A stretch of DNA of 22,567 bases, from positions 1 to 22,567 of IMG/VR virus record IMGVR_UViG_3300013131_000265; one strand, 5' to 3'. Position numbers and translations under genes: made by a program. This document shows positions 1 through 20,101 of this stretch, piece after piece. Below the pieces are notes generated by a model. The model was not told the DNA's origin, made no database searches, and was given only the letters and a program-made list of their open reading frames with translations. This DNA comes from a virus. Every line of letters starts with the position of its first letter. Position 1 is the first letter of the stretch.

Positions 1-609
1 AAAGCGGAATGCTTCTAGTGCATAGCTAGCGTGAAGTGCTAGGTATATTGACTTAATGTGTTCCTCTTCAGTAACTAGTCCGTCTCCAATTTCTTTTTGG
101 CAGTTTAAGTTATGCAGATAGTCATAATACTTGCCCACGCTACTAGCCATGCTGACAATTTCTTCTGTATCATGAATAGTGTTGAACACTTCTTTTGGCA
201 CGTTATAGATATTACGAATAATGTGACTGTAGCTACGGCTGTGAATGTTAGTTTCAAAGAATGTCCAGTTATATACTAGAGCTTCTAGTTCTGGTAAACT
301 AACAACTGGTGTAAAGATCTGACTAGGACCACGACCTTGTAAACTATCTAGAGCTGTTTGACGTAGTAAATTACTAGTGAAAATATGTTTAACAGCATCA
401 CTAGCATCTTTAAAATCGCCTGCGTCTTTAGTTAGGCTAACTTCTTCCGGCACCCAAAAGAATCCTCTGGCTGTAGCTTCAAAGTCAGCAATCTTCTTAT
501 ACTTAACTTCTTCAAAACGTTGAATGGTTACAGGACCAGCTGGATCGAGAAACATCTTACGGTTAAGATAGTCTGTTTTTGTAGTTAGGTTATATTGTTT
601 TTTACTCAT
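1..609 (-). CDS. nrdB: Ribonucleoside-diphosphate reductase beta subunit NrdB (N-terminal 203 residues; gene runs off the window)
   Basis: Small (radical-bearing) subunit of class Ia ribonucleotide reductase, which with NrdA makes dNTPs in the cytoplasm for phage replication. Visible landmarks are FFWVPEE, VKHIFTSNLLRQTALDSLQGRGP, the PELEALVYNW helix, and HSRSY, whose Tyr aligns with the radical-forming Tyr122 of E. coli NrdB. The ATG at 609 overlaps the nrdA stop as ATGA, so translation is coupled and the two subunits are made together. The C-terminal part, with the second metal-binding Glu/His set and the NrdA-docking tail, lies outside the window. Oddity: between the first metal-ligand Glu and His the spacing is E-T-N-I-H, one residue longer than the ExxH of E. 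coli NrdB as I remember it. The identity is very sure. Confidence 0.96.
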   Translation of the reverse strand, partial: MSKKQYNLTTKTDYLNRKMFLDPAGPVTIQRFEEVKYKKIADFEATARGFFWVPEEVSLTKDAGDFKDASDAVKHIFTSNLLRQTALDSLQGRGPSQIFTPVVSLPELEALVYNWTFFETNIHSRSYSHIIRNIYNVPKEVFNTIHDTEEIVSMASSVGKYYDYLHNLNCQKEIGDGLVTEEEHIKSIYLALHASYALEAFRF

Positions 610-4740: not shown

Positions 4741-4769
4741 AGTATATAGCAAGATTTAACTAAAGTCAA
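4741..4769 (-). promoter_or_regulatory. Sigma70-like promoter TTGACT-17-TATACT for the exonuclease gene (leaderless geometry)
   Basis: On the minus strand TTGACT (4769-4764) and TATACT (4746-4741) are separated by exactly 17 nt. The usual +1, 7 nt past the -10, falls on the A of the ATG at 4734. No ribosome-binding site is visible, so the message would be leaderless. It overlaps the end of erpA. Confidence 0.5.
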
Positions 4770-5086
4770 ATACTAAATGATGAGCCACACCCGCATGTTG
4801 CTTGTGCATTTGGGTTTTTAATACTAAATTGACTACCGGCCAGACTTTCTACATAATCAATCTCTGCACCTTGTAGATATTGACTACTCATACTGTCAAC
4901 TAGTACCGATAGTCCGCCTGCTTCAATTTCAAAATCATCTTCGTTTTTTTGATCATCAATAGTAAATCCATATTGGAAGCCACTACAGCCCCCGCCTTGT
5001 ACAAATACTCGTAGGCGACTTGTACTAGGTTCGTCGCTCATGATGTCTTTGATTTTTCTAACTGCATTTTCACTAATGTTAACCAT
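4766..5086 (-). CDS. erpA: A-type iron-sulfur carrier protein, ErpA/IscA-like
   Basis: 106 residues, full length for the HesB/IscA/ErpA family. It binds and hands on Fe-S clusters to apoproteins. The three ligand cysteines are Cys34 in [11 protein letters not shown] and Cys98/Cys100 in the C-terminal CGCGSSFSI. The overall sequence follows E. coli ErpA ([30 protein letters not shown]) more closely than IscA. The start has TAGGA 9 nt upstream and overlaps the iscU 3' end by 8 nt, so scaffold and carrier are co-translated. It is an unusual cargo gene in a phage; clients could be the radical SAM enzyme encoded just upstream or host/phage Fe-S proteins during infection. Family assignment is sure; ErpA versus IscA is a strong impression. 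Confidence 0.93.
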
Positions 5087-5459
5087 TTTGTTTTTTCCTA
5101 TAATCTTCTATTGCTGATTTAATAGCATCTTCTGCTAGCACACTACAATGTATCTTTACCGGCGGTAACGCAAGTTCATCAGCAATCTGGCTATTCTTAA
5201 TCTCTTTAGCTTGGTCCAACGTTTTGCCTTTAAGGAGTTCGGTAACGAGAGACGAACTAGCAATCGCGCTTCCGCATCCGTAAGTTTTAAATTTAGCATC
5301 TTTAATTATACCATCTTCTACTTCAATTTGTAGTTTCATTACGTCACCGCACGCAGGTGCACCGACCATACCTGTACCAACCTTAGGTGAGTTCTTATCT
5401 AAACTACCCACGTTCCTAGGATTTTCGTAATGTTCTAATACTTGTTGCGAATAGGCCAT
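5079..5459 (-). CDS. iscU: Iron-sulfur cluster assembly scaffold IscU
   Basis: 126 residues, full length. IscU builds [2Fe-2S] clusters from sulfur delivered by the cysteine desulfurase IscS and passes them on through HscA/HscB. Active residues are present: Cys37 and Asp39 ([13 protein letters not shown]), Cys62 ([13 protein letters not shown]), His104-Cys105 ([12 protein letters not shown]). The HscA-binding LPPVK motif is intact at 98-102. The N-terminus [18 protein letters not shown] is nearly that of E. coli IscU. No iscS, hscA, hscB or fdx is in the window, so it must use host partners. The start has GGAG 7 nt upstream and a GATAAATA late-type box at 5494-5501. All catalytic positions are kept, so it should be functional. 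Confidence 0.96.
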
Positions 5460-5509: not shown

Positions 5510-6163
5510 TCAACGATTTGTGATAATATTCGAGTATAAATTAGGGAAGTCATACCAGCTTGGATTAGTCTCAACGATTATAGAAAACATTTTTCTAGTT
5601 GTACTAATATTCTCAACGCTGTGTACTTTTTGTACATTAAATGCTATCCATGTTTCTTTTGGTAGCTGTACTGCATATTCTTTTTTAACTTGATTAATTC
5701 TATAATTAGTTGCTCTACGATGGTACGTAGGATGTTGACGCCTTTCTTTATCATAAAACGTAGTAACTACATCAGGTCCACCTGTGTCTAAAATCCAATT
5801 AATCGCCACATTACGACCACGATCAGTGTGTATAGGCGTGTGACTAACACTATCCGGGTATCTATTTTTCATTAATGCAAACATGCCACGACATTTAGAT
5901 TTGAAGTAGGATCCATAAACATCATCAACAATTTGATTTTGTTCATCTGAATACTCTGTTAGTTTGGTACTATACTGGAACCATATGATCTTACGTTGTC
6001 CGTGATTAAATTGTTCGTTCCATATGGCATTCGACTCTGTATCTGGCTCTCCGTTAGGGAACATTTCTGCCAACATCTTTTCCATTTTGTATATATGGTC
6101 AATAAGTTCCTGTGGAGGAGGAGGCAAATCAAGCGTTAAGATATATTCGTTGTTTAGTTCCAT
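5510..6163 (-). CDS. 2-oxoglutarate/Fe(II)-dependent oxygenase-like protein
   Basis: 217 residues. The iron-binding facial triad of 2OG oxygenases is visible as His112-x-Asp114 (PIHTDRGRN) and distal His181 (KVHSVENIS), with Arg190 nine residues after the distal His, where the 2OG carboxylate-binding Arg normally sits. The region between them (VAINWIL, DVVTTFYD, TWIAFNV) reads as the strands of a double-stranded beta helix. The family hydroxylates proteins, nucleobases or small molecules; the substrate here is unknown. It starts 7 nt after the radical SAM stop, so the two are co-transcribed and likely act in one pathway. No clear Shine-Dalgarno is seen. It could instead act on a glycan or on an arginyl/prolyl residue of a phage or host protein. 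Confidence 0.72.
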   Translation of the reverse strand: MELNNEYILTLDLPPPPQELIDHIYKMEKMLAEMFPNGEPDTESNAIWNEQFNHGQRKIIWFQYSTKLTEYSDEQNQIVDDVYGSYFKSKCRGMFALMKNRYPDSVSHTPIHTDRGRNVAINWILDTGGPDVVTTFYDKERRQHPTYHRRATNYRINQVKKEYAVQLPKETWIAFNVQKVHSVENISTTRKMFSIIVETNPSWYDFPNLYSNIITNR

Positions 6164-6170
6164 GATAAAA

Positions 6171-7001
6171 TTACTTATAAAAATGTAATTCGTGTTCAGT
6201 AACTATTGGTGGAAAGTTAGGTTTGCTTAAATTAGTTTGCTTTGGGCCCAGGGCAGAATGCCATTGCAAATCTTCAGGGCAGAATTCGCACTGTGGTATA
6301 GGACTATCTTTTGTTTCTACAAAGTTCTTTAGATCAGCATCAGTACAATCATAAGATAGTGGGGTAAAACTATACAACAATTCGCGCTGACGATCATTTA
6401 AGTCTAGACCAAACTGTTTGTCAAAATCTGGCAAGTTACTCATTGCTGGACATTTGTAAAGTTTACCCTGATACATAGTGTGGTCATGTTTCATATCGCA
6501 GGCATTAAATGCTCGCTGTACATCACTAGTGTGTAGAGTAAATTTTCCATCTGTTTCTATAACAGAACTTTGATGAAATGTAAATGCTTCAATGAATCCA
6601 GCCATCGGAAATCCGTAATGATGCCATTGCTCTTTAATTTCTTCGGCTGTAGACGGGTCATGCAGACTTAAGCCAAACCCCACACGATACTTAAACCATA
6701 AGTCAAAATGTTTAGGTCTTAGGTACGTGCCATTTGATTGTACCATGATAACACTATTAGGCCACAGTCTGCGCAAGTTGCTGGCCCACAATTCTAAATC
6801 TGGATTAAGAGTAGGCTCGCCACCTAAGATAGTTATACGTGGGATATCCACACGTTTAGACCATTCTTCATAAGCATTAGCGTGGTCTTCCCAACGTTGA
6901 TGACCTTTAAAGTTGTAGTTGTTAAAACGATTACAACCTCGACAGGCAAGATTACACACATTTGTTATGTAAAATTCTACTACGGGAAATAGTTTGATCA
7001 T
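6171..7001 (-). CDS. Radical SAM enzyme with C-terminal auxiliary Fe-S cysteines
   Basis: 276 residues. The [4Fe-4S]/SAM motif is C16-x3-C20-x2-C23 (CNLACRGC), followed by the SAM-contacting GGEP at 60-63 and PNSVIMVQSNG. The C-terminal part has Cys168, Cys184 (GKLYKCPAMSNL), Cys219, and Cys238/Cys241 (QCEFC), resembling a SPASM/twitch auxiliary cluster site. Such enzymes do radical chemistry on peptides, sugars or nucleotides; the substrate cannot be read from the sequence. No precursor peptide is evident next to it, and it is not a QueE-type sequence as I know it. It is followed directly by the 2OG oxygenase-like gene and then iscU-erpA, which could supply its clusters. The ATG is preceded by a 17-nt inverted repeat rather than a ribosome-binding site. 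Confidence 0.88.
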   Translation of the reverse strand: MIKLFPVVEFYITNVCNLACRGCNRFNNYNFKGHQRWEDHANAYEEWSKRVDIPRITILGGEPTLNPDLELWASNLRRLWPNSVIMVQSNGTYLRPKHFDLWFKYRVGFGLSLHDPSTAEEIKEQWHHYGFPMAGFIEAFTFHQSSVIETDGKFTLHTSDVQRAFNACDMKHDHTMYQGKLYKCPAMSNLPDFDKQFGLDLNDRQRELLYSFTPLSYDCTDADLKNFVETKDSPIPQCEFCPEDLQWHSALGPKQTNLSKPNFPPIVTEHELHFYK

Positions 7002-10064: not shown

Positions 10065-11306
10065 TTAGCCTTTTGACAAAAAATTGGTTCTACTAAAGGT
10101 CAAACGATCCACTAATTTAACTGCGCCGCCATTGTGTCCTATAGCAACAAACCCCTCAGGAGTTGTTACTTTGTAACCATCATTTGTTTTTTGGAATGTA
10201 CCTATACCCTCAACTTGGTTTAGTTTGTGTATAAGCATGTGTTTTAGTTCAATAATACGTTTATATGTAGCAAGAATGCCCAATAAACTGTTACTATTAT
10301 CTGCTATCCAGTCCTCACGTTGTTTAATTTTAGCAACACGAGCTTGCGCGGCTTTACCTTCTAGCCCGCCACTTAGTTGTTCGATACCTTTCATCATTTC
10401 CTGTTCATAATAATTGATGAAAGTTTGTAAGAACTTAGTAGGTTCACCTATTTGTGACCCTCCACGGATTTGTTGATTAATAAATGGTTTAATCATACGA
10501 TTAAACTCTTTATCTGCTAGAACAATATCAAAGCGTTGTTGGCCAATTTTGTCCATAGTTGCTACAGTTGCTTCTAGATATTTTTGTATTTTGGCATCTT
10601 CACTAGGTGTTAAACTTGCTACTCCTGTGTAGTCTTTATAGGTAGCGTCATCAAACCATACGTTCTTAGTTTGTGTAAATCCGCTAACATTAACTCCAAA
10701 CTCTGCTGATAAACCATCCCAGCTATCGCCTACATAAGTAGTGTGGAAAATAATGCCTATTTGCGCACCTGCAATACGTTGTCCTAGATGACTTTTTACC
10801 GGCACAGCATAGGTAATTGTGTTAGGTGTAAACACGTAACAATCTTCATTATTAACATTTACCACAGTTAAATCGCCAGGAGTAAACATTAAGTCGCCCT
10901 GTACAATACCACCAATACGCAGTTCACGTAGGTATTTCAGTGCGGCTTCTAGCATGTCTGCTAGTGCAGGCTGATCACTGTACCATGATTGGATATCTTT
11001 GGTTGACTTACATCGACGTGGATTGCCTTTGCTAAACACTGCTTTTGTACCTACAAAGAAGCGACTGTCTTCTGGATCTATACCGCAGATAATCGCAGGA
11101 CTACCGTCCCATTTAACTGTTAGTTGTGTAGTAGTACCGGTACCTTCTGCAAGCATCTGACGTAAACTATCAATATAGTTTAGGGCTTCTTGTGCGCCTG
11201 CCCAGCCTTGATTGAATAGCAAATCTTCTAAATGTTCAAGGTGAGTATTCTTGCTTTCTGTAAGTAAAAAGTCAGGATCTTGATTTTTTATTTCAAATAG
11301 TTTCAT
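10065..11306 (-). CDS. Ligase-fold nucleotidyltransferase-like phage protein (KWDG motif)
   Basis: 413 residues. TVKWDGSPAI (Lys65-Trp-Asp-Gly68) looks like motif I (K-x-DG) of the covalent nucleotidyltransferase/ligase fold, with FFVGTKAVF, IVQGDLMF (136-141), PNTITYAVPVKS (161-172) and IGIIFHTTY (183-191) in the order of later ligase motifs. The usual motif-III Glu appears as Asp in QGDLMF, so activity is uncertain. I recall this as a widespread uncharacterised family of T4-like cyanophages (DUF6267, from memory). The leader MKLFEIKNQDPDFLLTES precedes the conserved KNTHLEHLED, like a capsid-targeting propeptide. ATGA overlap with the upstream gene. A virion-packaged nucleic-acid enzyme or degenerate relative is possible. 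Confidence 0.68.
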   Translation of the reverse strand: MKLFEIKNQDPDFLLTESKNTHLEHLEDLLFNQGWAGAQEALNYIDSLRQMLAEGTGTTTQLTVKWDGSPAIICGIDPEDSRFFVGTKAVFSKGNPRRCKSTKDIQSWYSDQPALADMLEAALKYLRELRIGGIVQGDLMFTPGDLTVVNVNNEDCYVFTPNTITYAVPVKSHLGQRIAGAQIGIIFHTTYVGDSWDGLSAEFGVNVSGFTQTKNVWFDDATYKDYTGVASLTPSEDAKIQKYLEATVATMDKIGQQRFDIVLADKEFNRMIKPFINQQIRGGSQIGEPTKFLQTFINYYEQEMMKGIEQLSGGLEGKAAQARVAKIKQREDWIADNSNSLLGILATYKRIIELKHMLIHKLNQVEGIGTFQKTNDGYKVTTPEGFVAIGHNGGAVKLVDRLTFSRTNFLSKG

Positions 11307-12109
11307 TTACGTTGTTGCGCTAATAGTTGTTCTAAATGGGGCACATCAGTGTCAACAACAAAACCATCTTTGCCGGTATCATCTGGTGTTGTCCAGTGCC
11401 CATCACTCCATTTATCTGCACGAATTCCTTTTGGTGTAGTTACGCTAGCCACCTTAGTTGCATCAGTTTGCGTGACAACATCATTAGAAGTGTTAGGTGT
11501 CTGTGGTTGTAATCTTGCTATATCAATATTATCTCGCTGAGCAGCTTTATCTAATAGTTGTGAGGTGTTAACATCTACCGGAGGTTGAACTTTAGTACTA
11601 CCGGGGAAATATTTTGTCCATTGGTCATTGTCGTTTAATGTGAAAAGATTTGCTTTCCCCCCAAATTGATAAACTAACGGACTGTGATTCATGAATTTAA
11701 TTTGGTCTAACATCGGACCTTGTTGCGATGCTGATTGCTTTGCCATTTGCGTTTTTGCTGTAGCAACATCTTGTTTACTTGGTACTTTACGAGTAGACAT
11801 AAAATTAAGTTGCTGTTGTACTTGTTTAGGTGCAGGTACTGTTTTTCCTGTTTCGGGATTTACTAATCCCCATTGTTGGCCCAACCATTGGTATTCGTTT
11901 CCCTTGTATCGAATATTACCCGGTTTGGATAATCCTTGTTGAGTTGGAGTTTTTGCAGATTTGGCTTGCTTAAATGATTTACTTAATGAGTCATATGCGC
12001 CGGGTGCCACAGTATTAGCTAACCCTTGTCCTACTCCTTTAGCAACTGCTCCTATGCCTTTGCCTAGGCCGCTCCAGAATCCCTCTACTAAAAGTTCGTT
12101 AATCTTCAT
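11303..12109 (-). CDS. Probable virion-associated protein with Gly-zipper N-terminus and MKINEL leader
   Basis: 268 residues. It begins MKINELLVEG, then a glycine-zipper-like amphipathic stretch FWSGLGKGIGAVAKGVGQGL and a long Gln/Lys/Thr/Pro-rich, likely disordered middle. Two short repeated patches (YKGNEYQWLGQQWGLVNPETGK and ADKWSDGHWTTPDDTGKDGF) look like small binding modules. LVE-G fits the T4 gp21 prohead cleavage rule ([I/L]-x-E), which suggests a packaged internal or core protein, by inference only. The start lies within the 3' end of the 82-residue gene, with AGGA 9 nt upstream; the stop overlaps the next start as ATGA. Confidence 0.68.
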   Translation of the reverse strand: MKINELLVEGFWSGLGKGIGAVAKGVGQGLANTVAPGAYDSLSKSFKQAKSAKTPTQQGLSKPGNIRYKGNEYQWLGQQWGLVNPETGKTVPAPKQVQQQLNFMSTRKVPSKQDVATAKTQMAKQSASQQGPMLDQIKFMNHSPLVYQFGGKANLFTLNDNDQWTKYFPGSTKVQPPVDVNTSQLLDKAAQRDNIDIARLQPQTPNTSNDVVTQTDATKVASVTTPKGIRADKWSDGHWTTPDDTGKDGFVVDTDVPHLEQLLAQQRK

Positions 12110-12347
12110 TCTTTAATTTCCTAACACCACGAGTAAACTTACTAGGGTCTTGTCCCTTAATAGCATTAAGAAGACGGCGCTCTAGTTCACCAGCCTGCTC
12201 TGGTTCGTAGTTTTCGTGAATATACTTAATTAGATTAATAGCGCCATTGATGATGTTATTAGCACGAGACTCAAGGAGATTATCCTTGTCTTTGTGTGTA
12301 AGTAGTTCGTCTAATTCTGTAAGAATGCTACGGGTGCGTTTCTGCAC
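12099..12347 (-). CDS. Small helical phage protein of unknown function (late-type)
   Basis: 82 residues, charged and mostly helical (ILTELDELLTHKDKDNLLES, ANNIINGAINLIKYIHENYE), basic end. No domain recognised. GTG start at 12347 with GGAG 8 nt upstream and a late-type CATAAATA box at 12369-12376. It is the first gene of a late operon: the two following genes overlap it or each other. Possibly a small assembly or virion protein. Confidence 0.72.
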   Translation of the reverse strand: MQKRTRSILTELDELLTHKDKDNLLESRANNIINGAINLIKYIHENYEPEQAGELERRLLNAIKGQDPSKFTRGVRKLKNED

Positions 12348-12381: not shown

Positions 12382-13020
12382 TTATATATATCGATATGGG
12401 AGGTTATTTATAACCTCGTATTCAGCTTCCATAAAGCGTTTCACTGCCCACGAGTCTTCGTTGATCGGATACAACCATGGATTTCGATCCTGCCATTGTT
12501 TAAAATATTCGAGATTTAAACTACTCTCTCTGATAAATTTACCAGATACAATGTCCTGAAATTCTATGTTTTTACACTGCCTGTGTGCAGGAAATTCTAC
12601 AAAAACATTATGTGCCATTCTTCTAATCTTATCGATAGATTCTAAAGAATCAGTTTCTTGCCAATTTGGATACTCTGAGAGATACCATCCGTAATAATAA
12701 CGCAACCAACGTTGAAGTTTGCTATATCGTTCTTGCGTAGTTATAACTATTACTTCATCAAACTCATGTAGATTAGGTATAGCAGATGGATGTGCATGTG
12801 TGCCAAACCACTCGTTACTGTGTTTATGTAATTCTAATTTTTGATACCATTCGTTAATGTCAATAGCATCTTGTATAGTGGGGGTATCTCCAACCTTAAA
12901 CCCATTATGGTGGTCAGAGTTTAATCGATACCCCCCCGGAGCAGTATCAGGAAACACATTATTTAACAAATTGCACATTAGTGCGCCTGCGGTATTATTT
13001 GAAAAGCAAAGTAATTTCAT
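12382..13020 (-). CDS. Unknown phage protein, possibly sulfotransferase/P-loop-like
   Basis: 212 residues. The start MKLLCFSNNTAGALMCNLLN resembles a degenerate P-loop as in sulfotransferases (G-x-x-x-x-G-x-x-L-x-x-L-L), and FDEVIVITTQERYSKLQRWLRYYYGWYL looks like the second nucleotide-binding strand/helix of that fold. The Lys and Ser/Thr of a true P-loop are missing, so this is a weak assignment. Trp, Tyr and His are frequent. It overlaps the preceding pseudo-SGNH gene by 26 nt, so the two are probably translated together. No CTAG tetramer occurs in its 639 bases, unlike most neighbours, which may hint at a different origin. Confidence 0.6.
   Translation of the reverse strand: MKLLCFSNNTAGALMCNLLNNVFPDTAPGGYRLNSDHHNGFKVGDTPTIQDAIDINEWYQKLELHKHSNEWFGTHAHPSAIPNLHEFDEVIVITTQERYSKLQRWLRYYYGWYLSEYPNWQETDSLESIDKIRRMAHNVFVEFPAHRQCKNIEFQDIVSGKFIRESSLNLEYFKQWQDRNPWLYPINEDSWAVKRFMEAEYEVINNLPYRYI
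12400..12417. repeat. Perfect inverted repeat containing an exact late-promoter box
   Basis: gaggttat-tt-ataacctc, 8-nt arms around two bases, inside the last codons of the 12382-13020 gene. The centre carries TATAAATA on the minus strand (12405-12412). Hairpin, operator or chance; it may serve as an additional late start for the 12347 operon. Confidence 0.5.
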
Positions 13021-13750
13021 TTTTTAAAGTAGCCCAGATATGTTCTCTATCTGGATCAAATGGTTTAAACTCTACTTTCTCTATCAATGATCGTATAGCA
13101 TTAAACTTAGTATCGTTAAGATCTGGCAATAGAATTGATTTAATAAAATCTAATTGTGACAGTGTGCTTGGTTGTATTTCGGTTCCTCTACTGGGGTGGT
13201 TTTTTGTCCAGTCATCCATTCCATAAGGGAAATTAACCCATGGCAATTGTTTTAATTGTTCAAAGTTCGAATGTGTTGAATAGTCTGTTGGGTATGTTAA
13301 AAAATACAAATGTCTAATTTGCATTAAACTTAGCATTTTAGATAGTGTAATCATATTCAATACAGATCTATTAATAGATTGTTGTTGCTGAACGTAAAAT
13401 TCTTTGTACTTTGTAATTTCAGGTAACTGTGAAGCACTAGTGGACCACCAATACTGATCAAATACCTGCATTGATATATCTTTATAAACTGGATCACATC
13501 TATGTAAATTGTGCCAAATCTCATCTTCTATTATCTTGTCAAATCTCACAGGATCTGTCCATTGAATTAAAAACATATCCGTTTGTTTTGCAGACAATGA
13601 TGCTTTAGTAGCACAATTATATATGTACTCGTTTCCGGCGCCTATGTGTCCGAAATTCTTAACAGGTTGTTGAGTTAATACTTCTACTAGTTGTGGCCAT
13701 TCGGGCCATATATGCCCTGCAGCAAACCCATCACCAAATGTATAAATCAT
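12995..13750 (-). CDS. SGNH/GDSL-hydrolase-like pseudoenzyme (catalytic Ser replaced by Gly)
   Basis: 251 residues. The SGNH layout is recognisable: block I as IYTFGDGFAAGHIWPEWPQL, block III as NFGHIGAGNEYIYN, the following strand as FLIQWTDPVRFD, and a C-terminal helix PSTLSQLDFIKSIL. In block I the nucleophile Ser of the usual FGDS is Gly8 (FGDGF), and the C-terminal D-x-x-H block is not intact, so hydrolase activity is unlikely. It may bind carbohydrate or serve as a scaffold. Its ATG overlaps the stop of the gp41-type helicase gene (ATGA), so it is translationally coupled to replication, which is odd for a glycan-type protein. It overlaps the next gene by 26 nt. Confidence 0.65.
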   Translation of the reverse strand: MIYTFGDGFAAGHIWPEWPQLVEVLTQQPVKNFGHIGAGNEYIYNCATKASLSAKQTDMFLIQWTDPVRFDKIIEDEIWHNLHRCDPVYKDISMQVFDQYWWSTSASQLPEITKYKEFYVQQQQSINRSVLNMITLSKMLSLMQIRHLYFLTYPTDYSTHSNFEQLKQLPWVNFPYGMDDWTKNHPSRGTEIQPSTLSQLDFIKSILLPDLNDTKFNAIRSLIEKVEFKPFDPDREHIWATLKNEITLLFK

Positions 13751-15132
13751 TCTACTTTCTTGAGTCCTGCTAGCATGTTCTTAAGTTTGCTAGAGTCCAC
13801 AGTAGCATTTACTTTTGGAGTATCTCCCAAAGATTGATTCACTGTGGTGCCCGTTTTAATCTGGCTTAAGATATTAGTCACACCGCTACCTTGCTCACTA
13901 TCACTAGCACCACTGTCTGTAATACGCATGGTGTCAATGTCGTAGTCCAGATCAATCTTTTGACCTACACCAGTTGAACTACGTGACTTCATACACTGGA
14001 TTTGATAACGGCCACGCTCACGCATCGCACGACTAGTAAAGATACCAAACACGTTATCTGCTGTGTTGATCTTACTCAACCCACCTGCGATGTGACTGTG
14101 ATCAAATTCAATTTCTTCAACTGCTCCACGATTAAGTTGTGAAGCTGTTACAAATAACACACCAAGTTCTTTGGCTAAGTTACGCAATTCTTCTGACACA
14201 TATTTGTCTTTAACAAACAGATCATTTGGACTAACTTTAGCACTAACAGGCATAACCAAATCTAAGTAGTCAACCATAACAAAGTCTACTTTACGACCCG
14301 TTTGGATTTGATATTCTTTTAGGTATGCACGAATGTCGTTAACGTTTGACTGTGCTGGGAATCCTTTGATTTGATAGTTACCTGCTTTCTTACTTACTAG
14401 GCGCACTTTCATTGTGGTTGTGTCAATGTCTTTGCGGATATCTTTTGTGCCCATACCCGTAAGCATAGCATCTGTTCTTAATGCGCAAAGTTCTTCACTT
14501 AACTCTAGACTTACATACACCCCACTAAGTCCTTGTTGTAACCAACTAAGTGCGATGTTCATCATAACAAGTGATTTACCTGAACCCGAGCCGCCAGCAA
14601 AGATGTTTAGTTCACCACGACTAAATCCACCATACAGGAGTTTATCAAGTTGTGGCCAACCTGTACTTACTTGTCCGCCACTGTTGTAGTACTTCTCAAT
14701 ACGCTGTTTAGGATCAGCAAAATAATCTGTGCCCATGTCTTTGGTTAGACTGATCTGTACTGCATCTTTGATCAGCTTCTCAACTGGATTGTAGTCACCT
14801 TTTTCCAACATGTCTGCGGCTTTAAGAATAGCACGTTCTAGTTCTTGCTTCTTAGTAAAGCCCTCAAACTCACCCATAAACCACTCATAGTGGCTTTCAT
14901 TTAGATCAGGTACGTGTTTGAGGTCTACGCCTGTGACTGCTTTAACTTGATCAACTGTTGGCATAGTGCGATGTTGGTCTGTGTGTTCTTTAATAAACCG
15001 CGCAACCTCACGTAAACTACGGTCAAAGTTTTCTGGATTATAAATGTTCTGCACTCGCACATATGATTGTGCGTCCTGCATCATCATTTCAATAAAAAGT
15101 TTTTGTAGGTCTGGTGAATAGTCTTTGCTCAT
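13747..15132 (-). CDS. 41: Replicative DNA helicase, T4 gp41-type (DnaB family)
   Basis: 461 residues. Hexameric 5'-3' helicase that moves on the lagging strand with the gp61 primase. RecA-type ATPase motifs: Walker A GSGSGKS at 181-187 (GELNIFAGGSGSGKSL), catalytic Glu210 in YVSLELSEE, Walker B FVMVDYLDL with Asp288, sensor VTASQLNRG (Gln332), and the arginine finger region MKSRSSTGVG with Arg384. The N-terminal 130 residues form the helical linker/collar region. It begins 4 nt after the primase stop; no Shine-Dalgarno, but a TTGAAT-17-CATAAT promoter ends 7 nt before the ATG. The 3' end overlaps the pseudo-SGNH gene. Full length and intact. Confidence 0.93.
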   Translation of the reverse strand: MSKDYSPDLQKLFIEMMMQDAQSYVRVQNIYNPENFDRSLREVARFIKEHTDQHRTMPTVDQVKAVTGVDLKHVPDLNESHYEWFMGEFEGFTKKQELERAILKAADMLEKGDYNPVEKLIKDAVQISLTKDMGTDYFADPKQRIEKYYNSGGQVSTGWPQLDKLLYGGFSRGELNIFAGGSGSGKSLVMMNIALSWLQQGLSGVYVSLELSEELCALRTDAMLTGMGTKDIRKDIDTTTMKVRLVSKKAGNYQIKGFPAQSNVNDIRAYLKEYQIQTGRKVDFVMVDYLDLVMPVSAKVSPNDLFVKDKYVSEELRNLAKELGVLFVTASQLNRGAVEEIEFDHSHIAGGLSKINTADNVFGIFTSRAMRERGRYQIQCMKSRSSTGVGQKIDLDYDIDTMRITDSGASDSEQGSGVTNILSQIKTGTTVNQSLGDTPKVNATVDSSKLKNMLAGLKKVE

Positions 15133-15136
15133 ATAC

Positions 15137-16165
15137 TTAATTATGCAGTCTTTTTCTCATTAATTCAATTTTTAGTCCACTCGTTTCACGTGCATCTAAA
15201 ATACTCTTTAACACGAATAGCTTACCATATTTAACCACAGCTTCATTAACGTCTTTACAGGTTTCTTGCCATACAGGAAAACTAACACTCCAACCATATT
15301 CAATAGCTTTATTTACTAGTTGTGCGCCTGCTTTGTCAGCATCTGGTACAACAATAACTTCACGACCCAAACTGTCGATGATATCGGCTTGTGTTTCTGA
15401 ACAGTCATTGCTCATAACACTTACACCATCTACGCTCATAGCATCAAATGGGCCTTCGCAAACGATGACAAACTTAGCATCAGGTAATTGATTGTTTAGG
15501 TTAAACACTAGATTAGGTTCGTAGTTACTGTAATATTTGGGCTTAACACCATCTGTAAATGCTCGGCTTGTGTAGCCAACGATCTTACCTTCCCAAAGCA
15601 TAGGAATAATCACACGCTGATGTAGGCTATGTTCTGTGCTGTCAGTCCAATAAAAGTCATATTTTTTAGGGTCGATCTTACGTGCATTAACATAGTCAAC
15701 TGCTGAATTTAGTAGGGGCGGCACATCTTGAAAGTTGTTCAAGATATGAAATGATAAAAACTGTTGGAAACTGATAGCATCCTTGGGTAGTTCACGTACT
15801 TTAAACTCAATCTTTTCTTCAGACTCAGCCTTAAGCTCCTCTGGAGCTACAAGTTCACGAACACGAATAGCTTCAATTACTAAGCGTTTGATGTCATTTT
15901 CATCTGCTCCCAACCAACGTAGGAGTTTACGGAATTTAAATGTTAAATGTCTGCCTGGTTGATAGCTGGCTTTAAAATTACAGTTGAAACAATGATAGCT
16001 AACGCTACCATCTGCGTTGGCTGTTAAGCCGCCGCGACCTCGGGTATCTGCACTTTCGCCATTGTGTATACAGCAAGGTGCGTTAAAACTAGTCCAACCA
16101 GTAGGAGTTGTCTTACGTTTTGCGGGTAAGATGCTCTTGATGAAGTCAGAAATAATATTCAGCAT
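15137..16165 (-). CDS. 61: DNA primase, T4 gp61-type
   Basis: 342 residues, same length as T4 gp61. Makes RNA primers for lagging-strand synthesis together with gp41. N-terminal CHC2-type zinc ribbon: Cys32/His34 (APCCIH) and Cys59/Cys62 (YHCFNCNF). Central RNA-polymerase-type region (HQRVIIPML, GKIVGYTSRAF, KPKYYSNYEP). TOPRIM: Glu237 in FVIVCEGPFDAMSV and the Asp pair in VVPDADKAG (275/277). No ribosome-binding site; a sigma70-like promoter TTGATT-17-TAAAAT places +1 at the A of the ATG, so this gene can be expressed early and leaderless, independent of the late tail genes just upstream. Confidence 0.92.
   Translation of the reverse strand: MLNIISDFIKSILPAKRKTTPTGWTSFNAPCCIHNGESADTRGRGGLTANADGSVSYHCFNCNFKASYQPGRHLTFKFRKLLRWLGADENDIKRLVIEAIRVRELVAPEELKAESEEKIEFKVRELPKDAISFQQFLSFHILNNFQDVPPLLNSAVDYVNARKIDPKKYDFYWTDSTEHSLHQRVIIPMLWEGKIVGYTSRAFTDGVKPKYYSNYEPNLVFNLNNQLPDAKFVIVCEGPFDAMSVDGVSVMSNDCSETQADIIDSLGREVIVVPDADKAGAQLVNKAIEYGWSVSFPVWQETCKDVNEAVVKYGKLFVLKSILDARETSGLKIELMRKRLHN
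15140..15168 (-). promoter_or_regulatory. Sigma70-like promoter TTGAAT-17-CATAAT for the helicase gene (near-leaderless)
   Basis: Within the last codons of the primase gene. TTGAAT and CATAAT on the minus strand are separated by 17 nt; the -10 ends 7 nt ahead of the ATG at 15132, which would give a leader of about one base. It is weaker than the two similar promoters because it overlaps coding sequence and the -10 is less typical. Confidence 0.35.
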
Positions 16166-17423: not shown

Positions 17424-17798
17424 ATGGAAGACAGCATCAAGCATTTATTAGATCAATATCCCTTTTTAAGCTTCGTAACCTACGGTGGAAACGACTATAT
17501 CGGCATCATTCAGAACTCAGATGAATTAATCACAACGATCTATGACTTTGCTCTGCTTAAAACCCTAGAACAAAAAGCTCGCTATTTAGATCTAGCAGAT
17601 CAATGGTGGTGGGAAAGTAATAGACTAGTGCCTATCAATGTGTTCCTAAAACAGGATTGGATTGAATTTAGAGTTTGTTTGAAAACATTCAACAGTAAGG
17701 ACGTAGCAATACAGCATGGTCCTTATGTCAGTCTTAAAGAAATCGCACAAAAGCGCAGTAAACGTAGAAGTATTACGCTTGTTCGGAAAGTAAGTTAA
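17424..17798 (+). CDS. Conserved phage protein of unknown function, the only plus-strand gene
   Basis: 124 residues, soluble; beta-rich start (FLSFVTYGGNDYIGIIQNSD), a helical middle with Trp-rich LADQWWWESNRLVPINVFLKQDW, and a basic C-terminus AQKRSKRRSITLVRKVS that may contact nucleic acid. No catalytic motif. I recall related sequences in T4-like cyanophages as hypothetical. Transcribed rightward from the exact TATAAATA box at 17361-17368; only GTGG is near the ATG. The 3' end overlaps the convergent minus-strand SGNH gene by 26 nt. Codon use and conserved look argue for a real gene; the opposite-strand reading frame (60 residues) is a shadow. Confidence 0.78.
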   Translation: MEDSIKHLLDQYPFLSFVTYGGNDYIGIIQNSDELITTIYDFALLKTLEQKARYLDLADQWWWESNRLVPINVFLKQDWIEFRVCLKTFNSKDVAIQHGPYVSLKEIAQKRSKRRSITLVRKVS

Positions 17799-18432
17799 TA
17801 AAATAATCAGCAATAATTTGATTGCCAAGCACGTCAGGGTGTGCTTGTCTGCCTGTTAACTCTAACATATTAAAATCTATCAAATCCATCACATTTTTAT
17901 CTTTTTGTAAAGTTTTATAAAATGTGTCATTGACAACTTCTTCCTTTTTTACCAGGATTTTAGGGGCAGTGTAAATTAAGTATTTGATGTTGTGCTCTCG
18001 AAAAAATGCCGTAAGTGTAATTAAAAACGCCATTATATTCGTTAAAGTTGCAAGCTCATTGTGCACCATAAAACTTGATTTTACATATTGCTGTGCTTCT
18101 GGTGGATTCATAGGATTATCCGGGCCATTTAAACTTTCAAACAAATCTTCATTAGCATATCGCCAAGAGTTTTGCCCAGACCGATCACCAGAATATTCAA
18201 TTCGAGTCAGATGTGTTAGTTGTATCAGTGCAACTATTGGTTCACCCTTGTTAAGTAGTTTTAGACAATCTCTAATAGTGCATCGAATAATACGAGATGT
18301 GCAGCTTCCGGGTATTGCAGCATCTTTGATGTCCCAACCAAACCTCTCAGCAATGATGTACTGGTATCGTTGATTTTTTTGGACTAGATGGTTGTCAGTG
18401 TAACTACATCCGTTACTGTATAATATTGTCAT
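17773..18432 (-). CDS. SGNH/GDSL-type hydrolase-like protein
   Basis: 219 residues. Block I with the nucleophile is YSNGCSYTDN (Ser10), block II/III is AAIPGSCTSRII, the following strand is VALIQLTHLTRIEY, and the C-terminal block is QAHPDVLGNQIIADYF, where His198/Asp200 would complete the catalytic set. Members are esterases, lipases or O-acyl-modifying enzymes of polysaccharides; phage copies may edit glycans on virion or host surface. No signal peptide or membrane span, so cytoplasmic. It follows the PolIII-alpha-like gene with a 20-nt overlap and lies after the glycosyltransferase-like gene, which fits a glycan role. Its 3' end converges with the plus-strand gene. Substrate unknown. Confidence 0.72.
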   Translation of the reverse strand: MTILYSNGCSYTDNHLVQKNQRYQYIIAERFGWDIKDAAIPGSCTSRIIRCTIRDCLKLLNKGEPIVALIQLTHLTRIEYSGDRSGQNSWRYANEDLFESLNGPDNPMNPPEAQQYVKSSFMVHNELATLTNIMAFLITLTAFFREHNIKYLIYTAPKILVKKEEVVNDTFYKTLQKDKNVMDLIDFNMLELTGRQAHPDVLGNQIIADYFINLLSEQA

Positions 18433-18991
18433 TTATTAGATTGAGATTTACAGCAACTAGCTGAGCATACGCTACTGCGTGAGCTTTCTTAAAACTATAT
18501 TGCCCTTCAACTTTGTCCCACACAGTACTGCTAACTTCCTTCCAAGTTTTACCAATTAAATGATATTTTCCTGGACGAATAACTGCTAAGAACATAGCCA
18601 AACGTGGGATAGTATCTACGGGCTCTGGCATCTTTAATAATGTATCATAGTGATTGTTAACGTGAATTAACTGAGCACATATTGCCGGATCATACAACTT
18701 AGTCCAGTCTGGTTCACGCATTAATTCTATTAAGTGTTGTTCATTGCGTACTTGTTTGTATAAGTTAACATTAAGAAAGTCTAGTTTAATATAACCACGA
18801 GATTCTGCGTCATTATAGTCTAAACTCGCATAGCCTGTAAATGGATCTTGAGGTATATCTGTTACATAAACACCTGTGTTATGTTTAACTAATTTACCGT
18901 CACGGATAATACTTGCCGGTGTGGAACTAATAACAGCTAGTGCTTGTTCACGATCAGCAAAGTCAATGTCAATGTCTGAACGAAATTTCAC
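18413..18991 (-). CDS. Miniature DNA polymerase III alpha (DnaE/PolC)-like protein
   Basis: 192 residues, against about 1160 for DnaE. Four motifs of the C-family polymerase core occur in the right order: SDIDIDF (5-11; E. coli PDFDVDF with catalytic Asp401/Asp403), KHNTGVYVTD (36-45; KHAGGVVIA), YIKLDFLNVNLYK (67-79; LVKFDFLGL with Asp555), then LAMFLAVIRPGK (ALVALFRPGP) and GQYSFKKAHAVAYAQL (163-178; GYGFNKSHSAAYAL). All three catalytic Asp equivalents (6, 8, 71) are kept, while the PHP domain, most of fingers and thumb, the beta-binding and OB regions are absent. GTG start with GGGGG upstream; it lies between glycan-type genes. Whether it is active, regulatory or a fossil is unknown. E. 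coli motifs are quoted from memory. Confidence 0.65.
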   Translation of the reverse strand: MKFRSDIDIDFADREQALAVISSTPASIIRDGKLVKHNTGVYVTDIPQDPFTGYASLDYNDAESRGYIKLDFLNVNLYKQVRNEQHLIELMREPDWTKLYDPAICAQLIHVNNHYDTLLKMPEPVDTIPRLAMFLAVIRPGKYHLIGKTWKEVSSTVWDKVEGQYSFKKAHAVAYAQLVAVNLNLINDNIIQ

Positions 18992-19033: not shown

Positions 19034-20101
19034 TTAGACATTGTATGTTTTTCCAGCAAATTGTTTAATAATAATATCAAACTGTTTTTCCATTAGAAGA
19101 TTGATGTTCATTAATGTCATTTTATTATGATACGCTATTTCTTTTAATTTGTCAATGGTTTGACTAGTCCATTCTTGTGCCGACAATTTATTCACCAAGT
19201 CAGTGACCGCAACAACACGCTGATTAACATTAGCTATTTCATCGTAGTCTTCCGACCATACTTCATTATATGTCCTAAACCCAAGTTGGCGTAGTTGTGC
19301 TAAGAATCTATAAGACCCCATTAGAACAAATGGGGCTCCAGTTACTAATGCTTTAACTGTTTTTTCTGACAGGTGAAAATCATCATGTTCACTCATTGAT
19401 GTTTCACAAACTAGTAAGAATTTAGAACTGTTATAAATCCTAATAGGAATAGAATTTCCAATCCAAAAATGATGATCAAATTGTGCATCATTCAATGAAT
19501 CGCTATGGCTAATTTTTGCAAAATCATAGTTAAAATCTAATTGTCTAGATGGTTGCCCCCATTCTTGGCCTTTATAATTGAGCACATAATTTGTATTAGT
19601 TACATTATTTTTTAATGTATGCGCTAATAAATCTCGCTCAGGAGACTGTCTACCCACAAATGCACTAAATGTAAACGGTTTTGGACCTGTAAAATTATAA
19701 TCTCTGTCTTGAAAATAATCAATATATCTAAAATCCATCAATCTTCTATGTGTACTATACAACATATAGTTCCAATTTAAGAGGTCGTAGTCAAGTCCAA
19801 AATTAAAACGTTCTACATTCCACGTGCCATTTGATAGTAAAATATATTTCTTAGCTGGTGATAGTTTTGCTCTGCTCATGGAATCAAATCCTTCAGTGGC
19901 CATGTCTATCATCACTGTTTTAGCTGTTGAATTGTTTATTTTCTCTACTTCGAAAAAATTAATAACAGGAACACCTTGATCTGCTTTAACAAAAGGTAAA
20001 GTGACTTTTTCACCGTAAACTAATTCTTTATGAAACTTATAAGATGATAGTCCCCAAAGAAGGTCATTAACTATTGATTGCTCATAGACCAGTGGTATCA
20101 T
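19034..20101 (-). CDS. Glycosyltransferase-like protein (GT-B/fucosyltransferase-type motif)
   Basis: 355 residues. The C-terminal half has the donor-binding signature of the fucosyltransferase/exostosin-like GT-B group: KFLLVCETSMSEHDDFHLSEKTVKALVTGAPFVLMGSYRFL (EKT at 246-248, GAPF at 255-258), then LRQLGFRTYNEVWSEDYDEI. The middle FSAFVGRQSPERDLLA (145-160) resembles the strand with R-x-x-LL after the first Rossmann strand. It would transfer a sugar from a nucleotide donor to an unknown acceptor (phage protein, DNA or host glycan). The ATG overlaps the stop of the zinc-finger gene (ATGA). It has only three CTAG tetramers and is AT-rich, consistent with cargo. Donor and acceptor unknown. 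Confidence 0.7.
   Translation of the reverse strand: MIPLVYEQSIVNDLLWGLSSYKFHKELVYGEKVTLPFVKADQGVPVINFFEVEKINNSTAKTVMIDMATEGFDSMSRAKLSPAKKYILLSNGTWNVERFNFGLDYDLLNWNYMLYSTHRRLMDFRYIDYFQDRDYNFTGPKPFTFSAFVGRQSPERDLLAHTLKNNVTNTNYVLNYKGQEWGQPSRQLDFNYDFAKISHSDSLNDAQFDHHFWIGNSIPIRIYNSSKFLLVCETSMSEHDDFHLSEKTVKALVTGAPFVLMGSYRFLAQLRQLGFRTYNEVWSEDYDEIANVNQRVVAVTDLVNKLSAQEWTSQTIDKLKEIAYHNKMTLMNINLLMEKQFDIIIKQFAGKTYNV

Follow-up and report, generated by a model that had tools for sequence, protein, structure and literature searches.

An SGNH-fold phage protein family with glycine and glutamine in place of the catalytic serine and histidine

The window analysed here is a 22.6-kb virus record (22,567 nucleotides, IMGVR_UViG_3300013131_000265) whose helicase is closest to those of the jumbo phages PA5oct, Atu_ph07 and Phosso (46–52% identity), and it encodes a protein of 251 amino acids (aa) that we call pseudo-SGNH. 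As judged from aligned sequences, the catalytic Ser and His of SGNH hydrolases are replaced, by Gly8 and Gln193, in the whole sampled family of 86 distinct proteins, and the place of the catalytic Asp, by an approximate mapping, is seldom Asp. We read the family as SGNH pseudoenzymes throughout, that is, as ligand-binding, substrate-holding subunits acting beside a transferase-like protein within a cargo cassette, a reading for which we see about an even chance. What would make the family of interest is an esterase fold that appears emptied of its usual chemistry across the sampled phages, under strict selection, and with a swappable transferase-like neighbour.

Fold and catalytic positions of the pseudo-SGNH family

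The open reading frame (ORF) picked out by the initial annotation is real, running from an ATG on the minus strand (Table 1), and the SGNH blocks recognised there by eye agree with its predicted fold. The AlphaFold2 model, made with 49 aligned sequences, has a predicted local distance difference test score (pLDDT) of 94.7 and a predicted template modelling score (pTM) of 0.91, and takes on the three-layer SGNH architecture. In VIA-align the model reaches Z 11.6 against a GDSL protein and about 11 against TesA, and the titles of the 50 PDB entries shown (Z 11.6–9.5) are nearly all those of lipases, esterases, thioesterases and acyltransferases, mostly GDSL/SGNH or TesA. Foldseek similarly places acylhydrolases, TesA and GDSL lipases first in the PDB, with probability 1.00, E values of 1.7e-3 or weaker and TM-scores near 0.44.

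In the start offsets of the VIA-align superpositions, residue 1 of pseudo-SGNH corresponds to chain residue 31 of ChoE, 8 of Axe2 and 27 of AnAE, which, assuming gap-free residues 1–8, places Gly8 on Ser38, Ser15 and Ser34, respectively. These are the residues mutated in 6ur1, 4jko and 9l2j, whose titles carry S38A, S15A and S34A. By these alignments, Gly8 thus falls in the nucleophile position of SGNH enzymes. Read from the C-terminal end, the same alignments approximately map His194 of Axe2 and His288 of ChoE to residue 194, one off Gln193, and Asp191 of Axe2 and Asp285 of ChoE to residue 191, which adjoins residue 190.

The family was sampled by four retrievals, of which the first leaned on the peptide HIWPEWPQ and gave, among the best 80 of 99 relatives, 51 distinct proteins, or 49 full ones once two cut at contig ends were left out. 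Because HIWPEWPQ was used for retrieval, the invariance of block I in this first set is partly selected. A second retrieval used the block III peptide alone (best 80 of 129 relatives), and the new members that it brought in all read GDG. The third ran a DNA pattern with codon 8 fully free over viral contigs and matched at least 119 stretches; the pattern still fixes GD, His13 and WPxWP and so tests position 8 only. The 115 matches read correspond to 77 distinct proteins, and all 77 have Gly8, as do 85 of 85 distinct stretches over all loci, some of them short fragments. A fourth retrieval started from the partner protein described below (best 80 of 181 relatives). Pooling the four with the window and keeping hidden Markov model hits of at least 150 residues yielded the 86 proteins; subsets served elsewhere, with 33 of the 49 members in one analysis and 7 of 11 A5 partners in another.

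Across this set neither the GDS of block I nor the DxxHP of block V is found. The window reads GDGFAAG in block I, and G6, D7, G8, W15, P16 and W18 are present in 86/86 members, H13 and P19 in 85/86 and E17 in 83/86. The block II glycines of the SGNH superfamily are retained (G39 86/86, G37 85/86), and GxND of block III is missing, with QWxxxxR at its place (Q63, W64 and R69 86/86). The C-terminal block of the window reads GTEIQPSTLSQ, in which neither Gln193, at the catalytic His position, nor the later Gln199 is His; residue 199 is His in 81 of 86 members. Residue 190 is variable (T 20, N 19, Q 12, S 9, K 9 and D 7 of 86), and residue 191 is Glu in 63 and Gln in 20. Gly8 is encoded by all four Gly codons (GGA 42, GGG 21, GGT 12, GGC 11) and Gln193 by both Gln codons (CAA 52, CAG 34). 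The comparison of the Ser position among homologues that the initial annotation proposed therefore returns Gly throughout, and the degenerate His block that it noted recurs as Gln193 in 86/86. Together with the predicted fold, these two residues support its suggestion of a repurposed fold that is probably not an esterase.

Nineteen positions are invariant: G6, D7, G8, W15, P16, W18, G39, Q63, W64, R69, D71, D86, Y89, W101, W102, Y115, Q124, Q193 and P194. They occupy positions of the SGNH blocks, a single added motif and a long helix, and we therefore infer a single frozen pocket lined by them. No Ser, Thr, Cys or His is among the 19. In this respect the search for a substitute nucleophile came out on the side of the initial annotation, and the nearest candidates, H13, S105 and S107, leave it less than clear-cut at 85/86 each.

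Table 1. Features of the cassette region in the window, with conservation counted over the 86 proteins.
Feature	Position	Strand	Remarks
Pseudo-SGNH protein, 251 aa	12995..13750	-	ATG start; Gly8 for catalytic Ser, Gln193 for catalytic His
Block I, residues 6-20, GDGFAAGHIWPEWPQ	13691..13735	-	Nucleophile position Gly8 at 13727-13729
Block II, residues 37-41, GAGNE	13628..13642	-	G39 86/86, G37 85/86, A38 84/86, E41 84/86
Block III position, residues 63-72, QWTDPVRFDK	13535..13564	-	Q63, W64, R69, D71 86/86; K72 83/86
Family-specific motif WWSTSAS, residues 101-107	13430..13450	-	W101, W102 86/86; S105, S107 85/86 each
Block V position, residues 188-199, RGTEIQPSTLSQ	13154..13189	-	Gln193 for catalytic His at 13172-13174; Q193, P194 86/86
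Partner protein, 212 aa, divergent sulfotransferase-like fold	12382..13020	-	26-base overlap with pseudo-SGNH gene
gp41-type DnaB helicase	13747..15132	-	ATGA overlap with pseudo-SGNH start
DNA primase	15137..16165	-	PHROG 47, E 2.2e-40; gene before gp41
82-aa gene, downstream bound of cassette	12099..12347	-	PA5oct relative annotated virion structural protein

Family libraries do not name the protein. The window pseudo-SGNH finds nothing above the Pfam cut-off (one tRNA-synthetase row, E 0.014, lies below it) and nothing in PHROGs at E 0.1, in NCBIfam at E 0.05 or in PADLOC. As for Pfam GDSL/SGNH families, Lipase_GDSL_2 appears in 2 of the 49 members, with a best E of 0.029, and the window is not one of them. 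In a PDB sequence search, neither the pseudo-SGNH nor the partner profile gave anything below E 0.09. Named phages offered one partial match to pseudo-SGNH, in Mosig, which came up again at E 0.9 in a second search and not in a third, and no relative of the partner or of the second SGNH-like ORF described below; the 37 pattern matches in genome contigs included no pseudo-SGNH relative. Within the open-access papers searched, we recognised no phage pseudo-SGNH of this type and no account of its pairing. Other Pfam rows among the 49 members, the commonest being Fn3_Dep-1_5th (11/49, best E 0.0015), were weak and scattered, and 11 PHROGs were hit by one member each (best E 0.0041); we took both for chance.

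Partner proteins and gene neighbourhood

In 82 of 86 cases the pseudo-SGNH gene is directly next to a gene from one of four partner families, on either side (A3 upstream 50, A3 downstream 6, A7 upstream 10, A5 upstream 9, A4 downstream 7). Among the other four loci, the neighbour in L248 and L255 is a further protein that begins with GxxGxxL, which is not so in L256 and L023. In the window the 3′ end of the pseudo-SGNH gene runs 26 bases into the gene of its A3 partner, the one partner family for which the fold was predicted (AlphaFold2 pLDDT 92.8). The first 36 VIA-align rows for this model are sulfotransferases (Z 7.6–6.9), Teg12, Teg14 and StaL among them. Alignment of 26 of the 29 distinct A3 partners with that of the window (three were left out) reveals an N-terminal G12-G13-L14 loop and an invariant Thr74-His75 pair (27/27), which resembles the catalytic-His motif of sulfotransferases; the usual PAPS (3′-phosphoadenosine-5′-phosphosulfate)-binding residues are not evident. 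At E 0.1, Pfam found no sulfotransferase family in the 27 A3 members. By profile comparison, partner families A4 and A7 are related (86%).

Dependence within the pair is one-sided, in that the partner occurs without pseudo-SGNH. Some A3 partners have a radical S-adenosylmethionine (SAM)-like ORF instead, one of them confirmed by Pfam (L150). Shortened pseudo-SGNH copies lie by an intact partner in L144 (3490-4023, 177 aa) and L175 (4605-4754, about 50 aa left), and thus the pseudo-SGNH gene can go while its partner stays. Both cassette genes evolve fast, with mean distances of 0.99 for pseudo-SGNH and 0.96 for the partner, compared with 0.31 for gp41. Over 45 loci, the distances of pseudo-SGNH and partner remain correlated once gp41 is accounted for (partial r 0.53, 0 of 2000 permutations), a correlation much of which shared descent probably explains.

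Radical SAM proteins are the further recurrent neighbour. An ORF of a radical SAM cluster precedes the partner in all nine A7-type loci laid out, where neighbour ORFs were called by a simple longest-ORF rule and start sites are approximate. Run against Pfam, four of these ORFs gave two matches above and two below the cut-off, and one scanned against NCBIfam is named a twitch-domain radical SAM protein. From these neighbours we envisage a modification cassette with pseudo-SGNH as its substrate binder. The pseudo-SGNH family itself is acidic, with a median isoelectric point (pI) of 5.7 and a median net charge of -7 over 85 proteins, which speaks against a general nucleic-acid binder.

Some observations of radical SAM and other neighbouring genes stand on their own. 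In BFVD, a 602-aa radical SAM protein of an uncultured phage (A0A6J5LTW5) matches the pseudo-SGNH model over ~150 columns and is perhaps a fusion. Elsewhere in the window, a radical SAM ORF (6171-7001, Pfam) lies near an Fe-S assembly pair on the minus strand (4766-5459), in which IscU (NCBIfam TIGR01999, 223.8 bits) and an ErpA-like protein (NF010147, 154.3 bits) are both above cut-off; an ORF at 5510-6163 looks oxygenase-like by eye and has no Pfam or PHROG match. Minus-strand ORFs of ~290–570 aa that resemble, by eye, pieces of DNA polymerase III alpha sit at the cassette edge in L024, L062, L144 and L175.

The gene upstream of pseudo-SGNH in the window encodes a DnaB-type helicase (PHROG 19, E 7.8e-72; Pfam DnaB_C, 1.6e-20), and the ATGA overlap described in the initial annotation is real. 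The plus strand reads tcat at 13747-13750, which is ATGA on the coding strand, so that the gp41 stop (13747-13749) shares bases with the pseudo-SGNH ATG (13748-13750). Taken by itself this says little, because four-base overlaps recur across the window (606-609, 11303-11306 and 20098-20101 in the ORF table). In the 73 loci that extend 1.5 kb or more upstream, gp41 and the pseudo-SGNH gene abut directly in 9; gp41 is found upstream at a distance of up to 2.6 kb in another 58 and is not found there in 6; 13 further loci are too short. When short loci are included, the abutting cases number 12, of which 11 have the partner downstream and one has no partner. The A3 pair is also present without upstream gp41 in L243, where gp41 is on the opposite strand 222 bases downstream, and in L041 and L089. 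In PA5oct, Atu_ph07 and Phosso, a relative of the 82-aa gene (48.6% over 74 aa, 37.5% over 56 and 46.1% over 76, respectively) follows the primase and helicase genes, with at most one small gene, seen in two of the phages, between it and the helicase, and the pseudo-SGNH and partner profiles have no match in those stretches. Because these cultured relatives keep primase, helicase and 82-aa gene without the cassette, we regard the cassette as cargo in the replication operon. A specific link to the helicase, as drawn in the initial annotation, is therefore not supported: the tie is weak, and pseudo-SGNH is found more steadily beside a protein of sulfotransferase-like or other GxxGxxL type. The gene is still likely to be expressed along with those for replication.

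A probable binding role and its alternatives

In the mechanism that we favour, an SGNH pocket has been emptied of its catalytic Ser and His but kept frozen. With several Trp as well as Gln, Asp and Arg, this pocket probably binds a ligand, as carbohydrate and nucleotide-sugar sites do, and pseudo-SGNH would most likely hold or select a substrate for a transfer reaction carried out by its sulfotransferase-like or other GxxGxxL neighbour. By comparison of loci, the pair, often together with a radical SAM enzyme, behaves as a cargo cassette that in most cases is lodged within the operon for primase and helicase in relatives of jumbo phages, and it is probably expressed with the replication genes without being part of the replisome. 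A more specific version, which we put forward only tentatively, makes pseudo-SGNH and its sulfotransferase-like neighbour a two-protein machine, in which a pocket built from GDGxAxGHxWPEWPQ, QWxxxxRxDK, WWxSxAS and QPxP would present a substrate to a swappable transferase family, so that a molecule of the phage or of its host is modified while replication is under way. The substrate might then be a glycan, a nucleotide sugar or a peptide, perhaps one on which the neighbouring radical SAM enzyme has already acted.

Several results weigh against a pseudoenzyme that serves a transferase-like partner. No Foldseek match of pseudo-SGNH in the PDB has an E value of 1e-3 or better, and seven of the 86 members do carry Asp at position 190. 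For the partner, Z stays below 8, which according to the tool may mean a common arrangement, nucleotide kinases tie with the sulfotransferases at Z 6.9–6.8, and the first Foldseek match, SULT2A1, has a probability of 0.89 and a best E of 0.013. Kinship of the four partner families is supported for A4–A7 only, A5–A7 being weak at 11% and the A4–A5 comparison and those of A3 with A4, A5 and A7 all falling below 1%. Among the 49 distinct A3 partners from the best 80 of 181 loci, 23 have no pseudo-SGNH detected alongside and 26 adjoin one, shortened in two cases. In addition, the distances of pseudo-SGNH and gp41 likewise stay correlated when the partner is accounted for (partial r 0.43, 0 of 2000, 45 loci), and here too shared descent probably accounts for much of the correlation.

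The strictness of the pocket can be viewed differently, as that of an active enzyme with another chemistry whose pocket was rebuilt on D7, R69, D71, D86, Y89, Q63 and Q193 and in which Gly8 leaves space for a cofactor or a bulky substrate. Nineteen invariant positions in proteins some of which are only about 30% identical to that of the window are indeed as strict as an active site, but a binding site would fit them too, and none of them is Ser, Thr, Cys or His, although the exceptions at H13, S105 and S107 could be sequence errors; we consider this alternative unlikely. Conservation likewise bears on the notion of a decaying esterase gene without function, which the shortened copies of 177 aa in L144 and about 50 aa in L175 bring to mind. 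Decay could hold for such single copies. Gly8, Gln193 and 17 more positions at 86/86, and synonymous codon change at 7, 8 and 193, the three such positions for which codons were compared, argue against decay of the whole family, which we regard as barely credible.

Gene order is the source of the remaining alternatives. Given the ATGA overlap, the fact that in 67 of 73 loci gp41 abuts or is no more than 2.6 kb upstream, and the partial correlation of 0.43 with gp41, pseudo-SGNH might be a replisome accessory that binds gp41, the primase or nucleic acid. We judge this very unlikely, since gp41 abuts in 9/73 only, 11 of the 12 abutting cases have the partner on the other side, the pair persists in three loci without upstream gp41, three cultured phages with related gp41 lack the cassette there, and the family is acidic (as given above). 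Remoter still is a role in the virion or tail, with the SGNH domain serving in the manner of a lectin; the genes directly downstream are annotated as virion structural proteins in PA5oct, but pseudo-SGNH is a stand-alone domain of about 230–260 aa whose neighbours are transferase-like and radical SAM proteins. As such, a substrate-holding pseudoenzyme in a cargo cassette remains the reading that we prefer. It would correct the tempting inference that a four-base overlap with a helicase gene makes a replisome part, and it suggests that relatives of jumbo phages carry a modification cassette that has no name in the family libraries searched.

Comparison with known SGNH proteins

The pseudo-SGNH family resembles SGNH/GDSL hydrolases such as E. 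coli TesA, Axe2 and ChoE in its predicted fold over residues 1 to about 213 (Z 10–11) and in block order. It differs from them in having Gly for Ser, Gln for His, a mostly non-Asp residue at the place of the Asp and no GxND, and it adds the motifs GHIWPEWPQ and WWxSxAS.

Phage SGNH proteins with intact motifs, in contrast, keep GCS or GDS, and HP, where these are seen. Mosig_00086 of a Pelagibacter phage (hhalign 96.9% over window residues 14–88) keeps SGCSYT and DKHPNG. In several related loci, among them L009, L025, L030, L034 and L044, the primase is preceded by a different SGNH-like ORF that seems intact; the six N-termini inspected for this upstream ORF all read GDSW and the two C-termini HPNE. 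Some phages therefore have an intact SGNH protein on one side of the primase and helicase genes and an emptied one on the other. Among the BFVD matches with E ≤ 1e-3 are four phage proteins named as SGNH_hydrolase domain, and the viral models closest of all, two with 30% and 24% identity, probably belong to the pseudo-SGNH family. Since intact phage relatives exist, the triad was lost in the pseudo-SGNH family and not in phage SGNH proteins at large, and their availability for comparison would make this a clean case of evolution from enzyme to binder. The window has a second SGNH-like ORF of its own on the minus strand (17773-18432), with NGCS and AHP motifs intact by eye and no library match, which overlaps a short DNA-polymerase-like ORF (phrog_11778) at 18413-18991.

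The closest parallel in idea is the OSK domain of insect Oskar, likened here by description and not by homology. OSK is described as a GDSL-lipase-like domain in which the triad is not conserved and as RNA-binding, consistent with its basic surface residues (PMC8662646), and a bacterial GDSL-like origin is argued for it (PMC7250577). Both would be emptied SGNH/GDSL folds. The pseudo-SGNH family thus appears to follow a known idea but, compared with an OSK domain so described, on a protein that is acidic overall.
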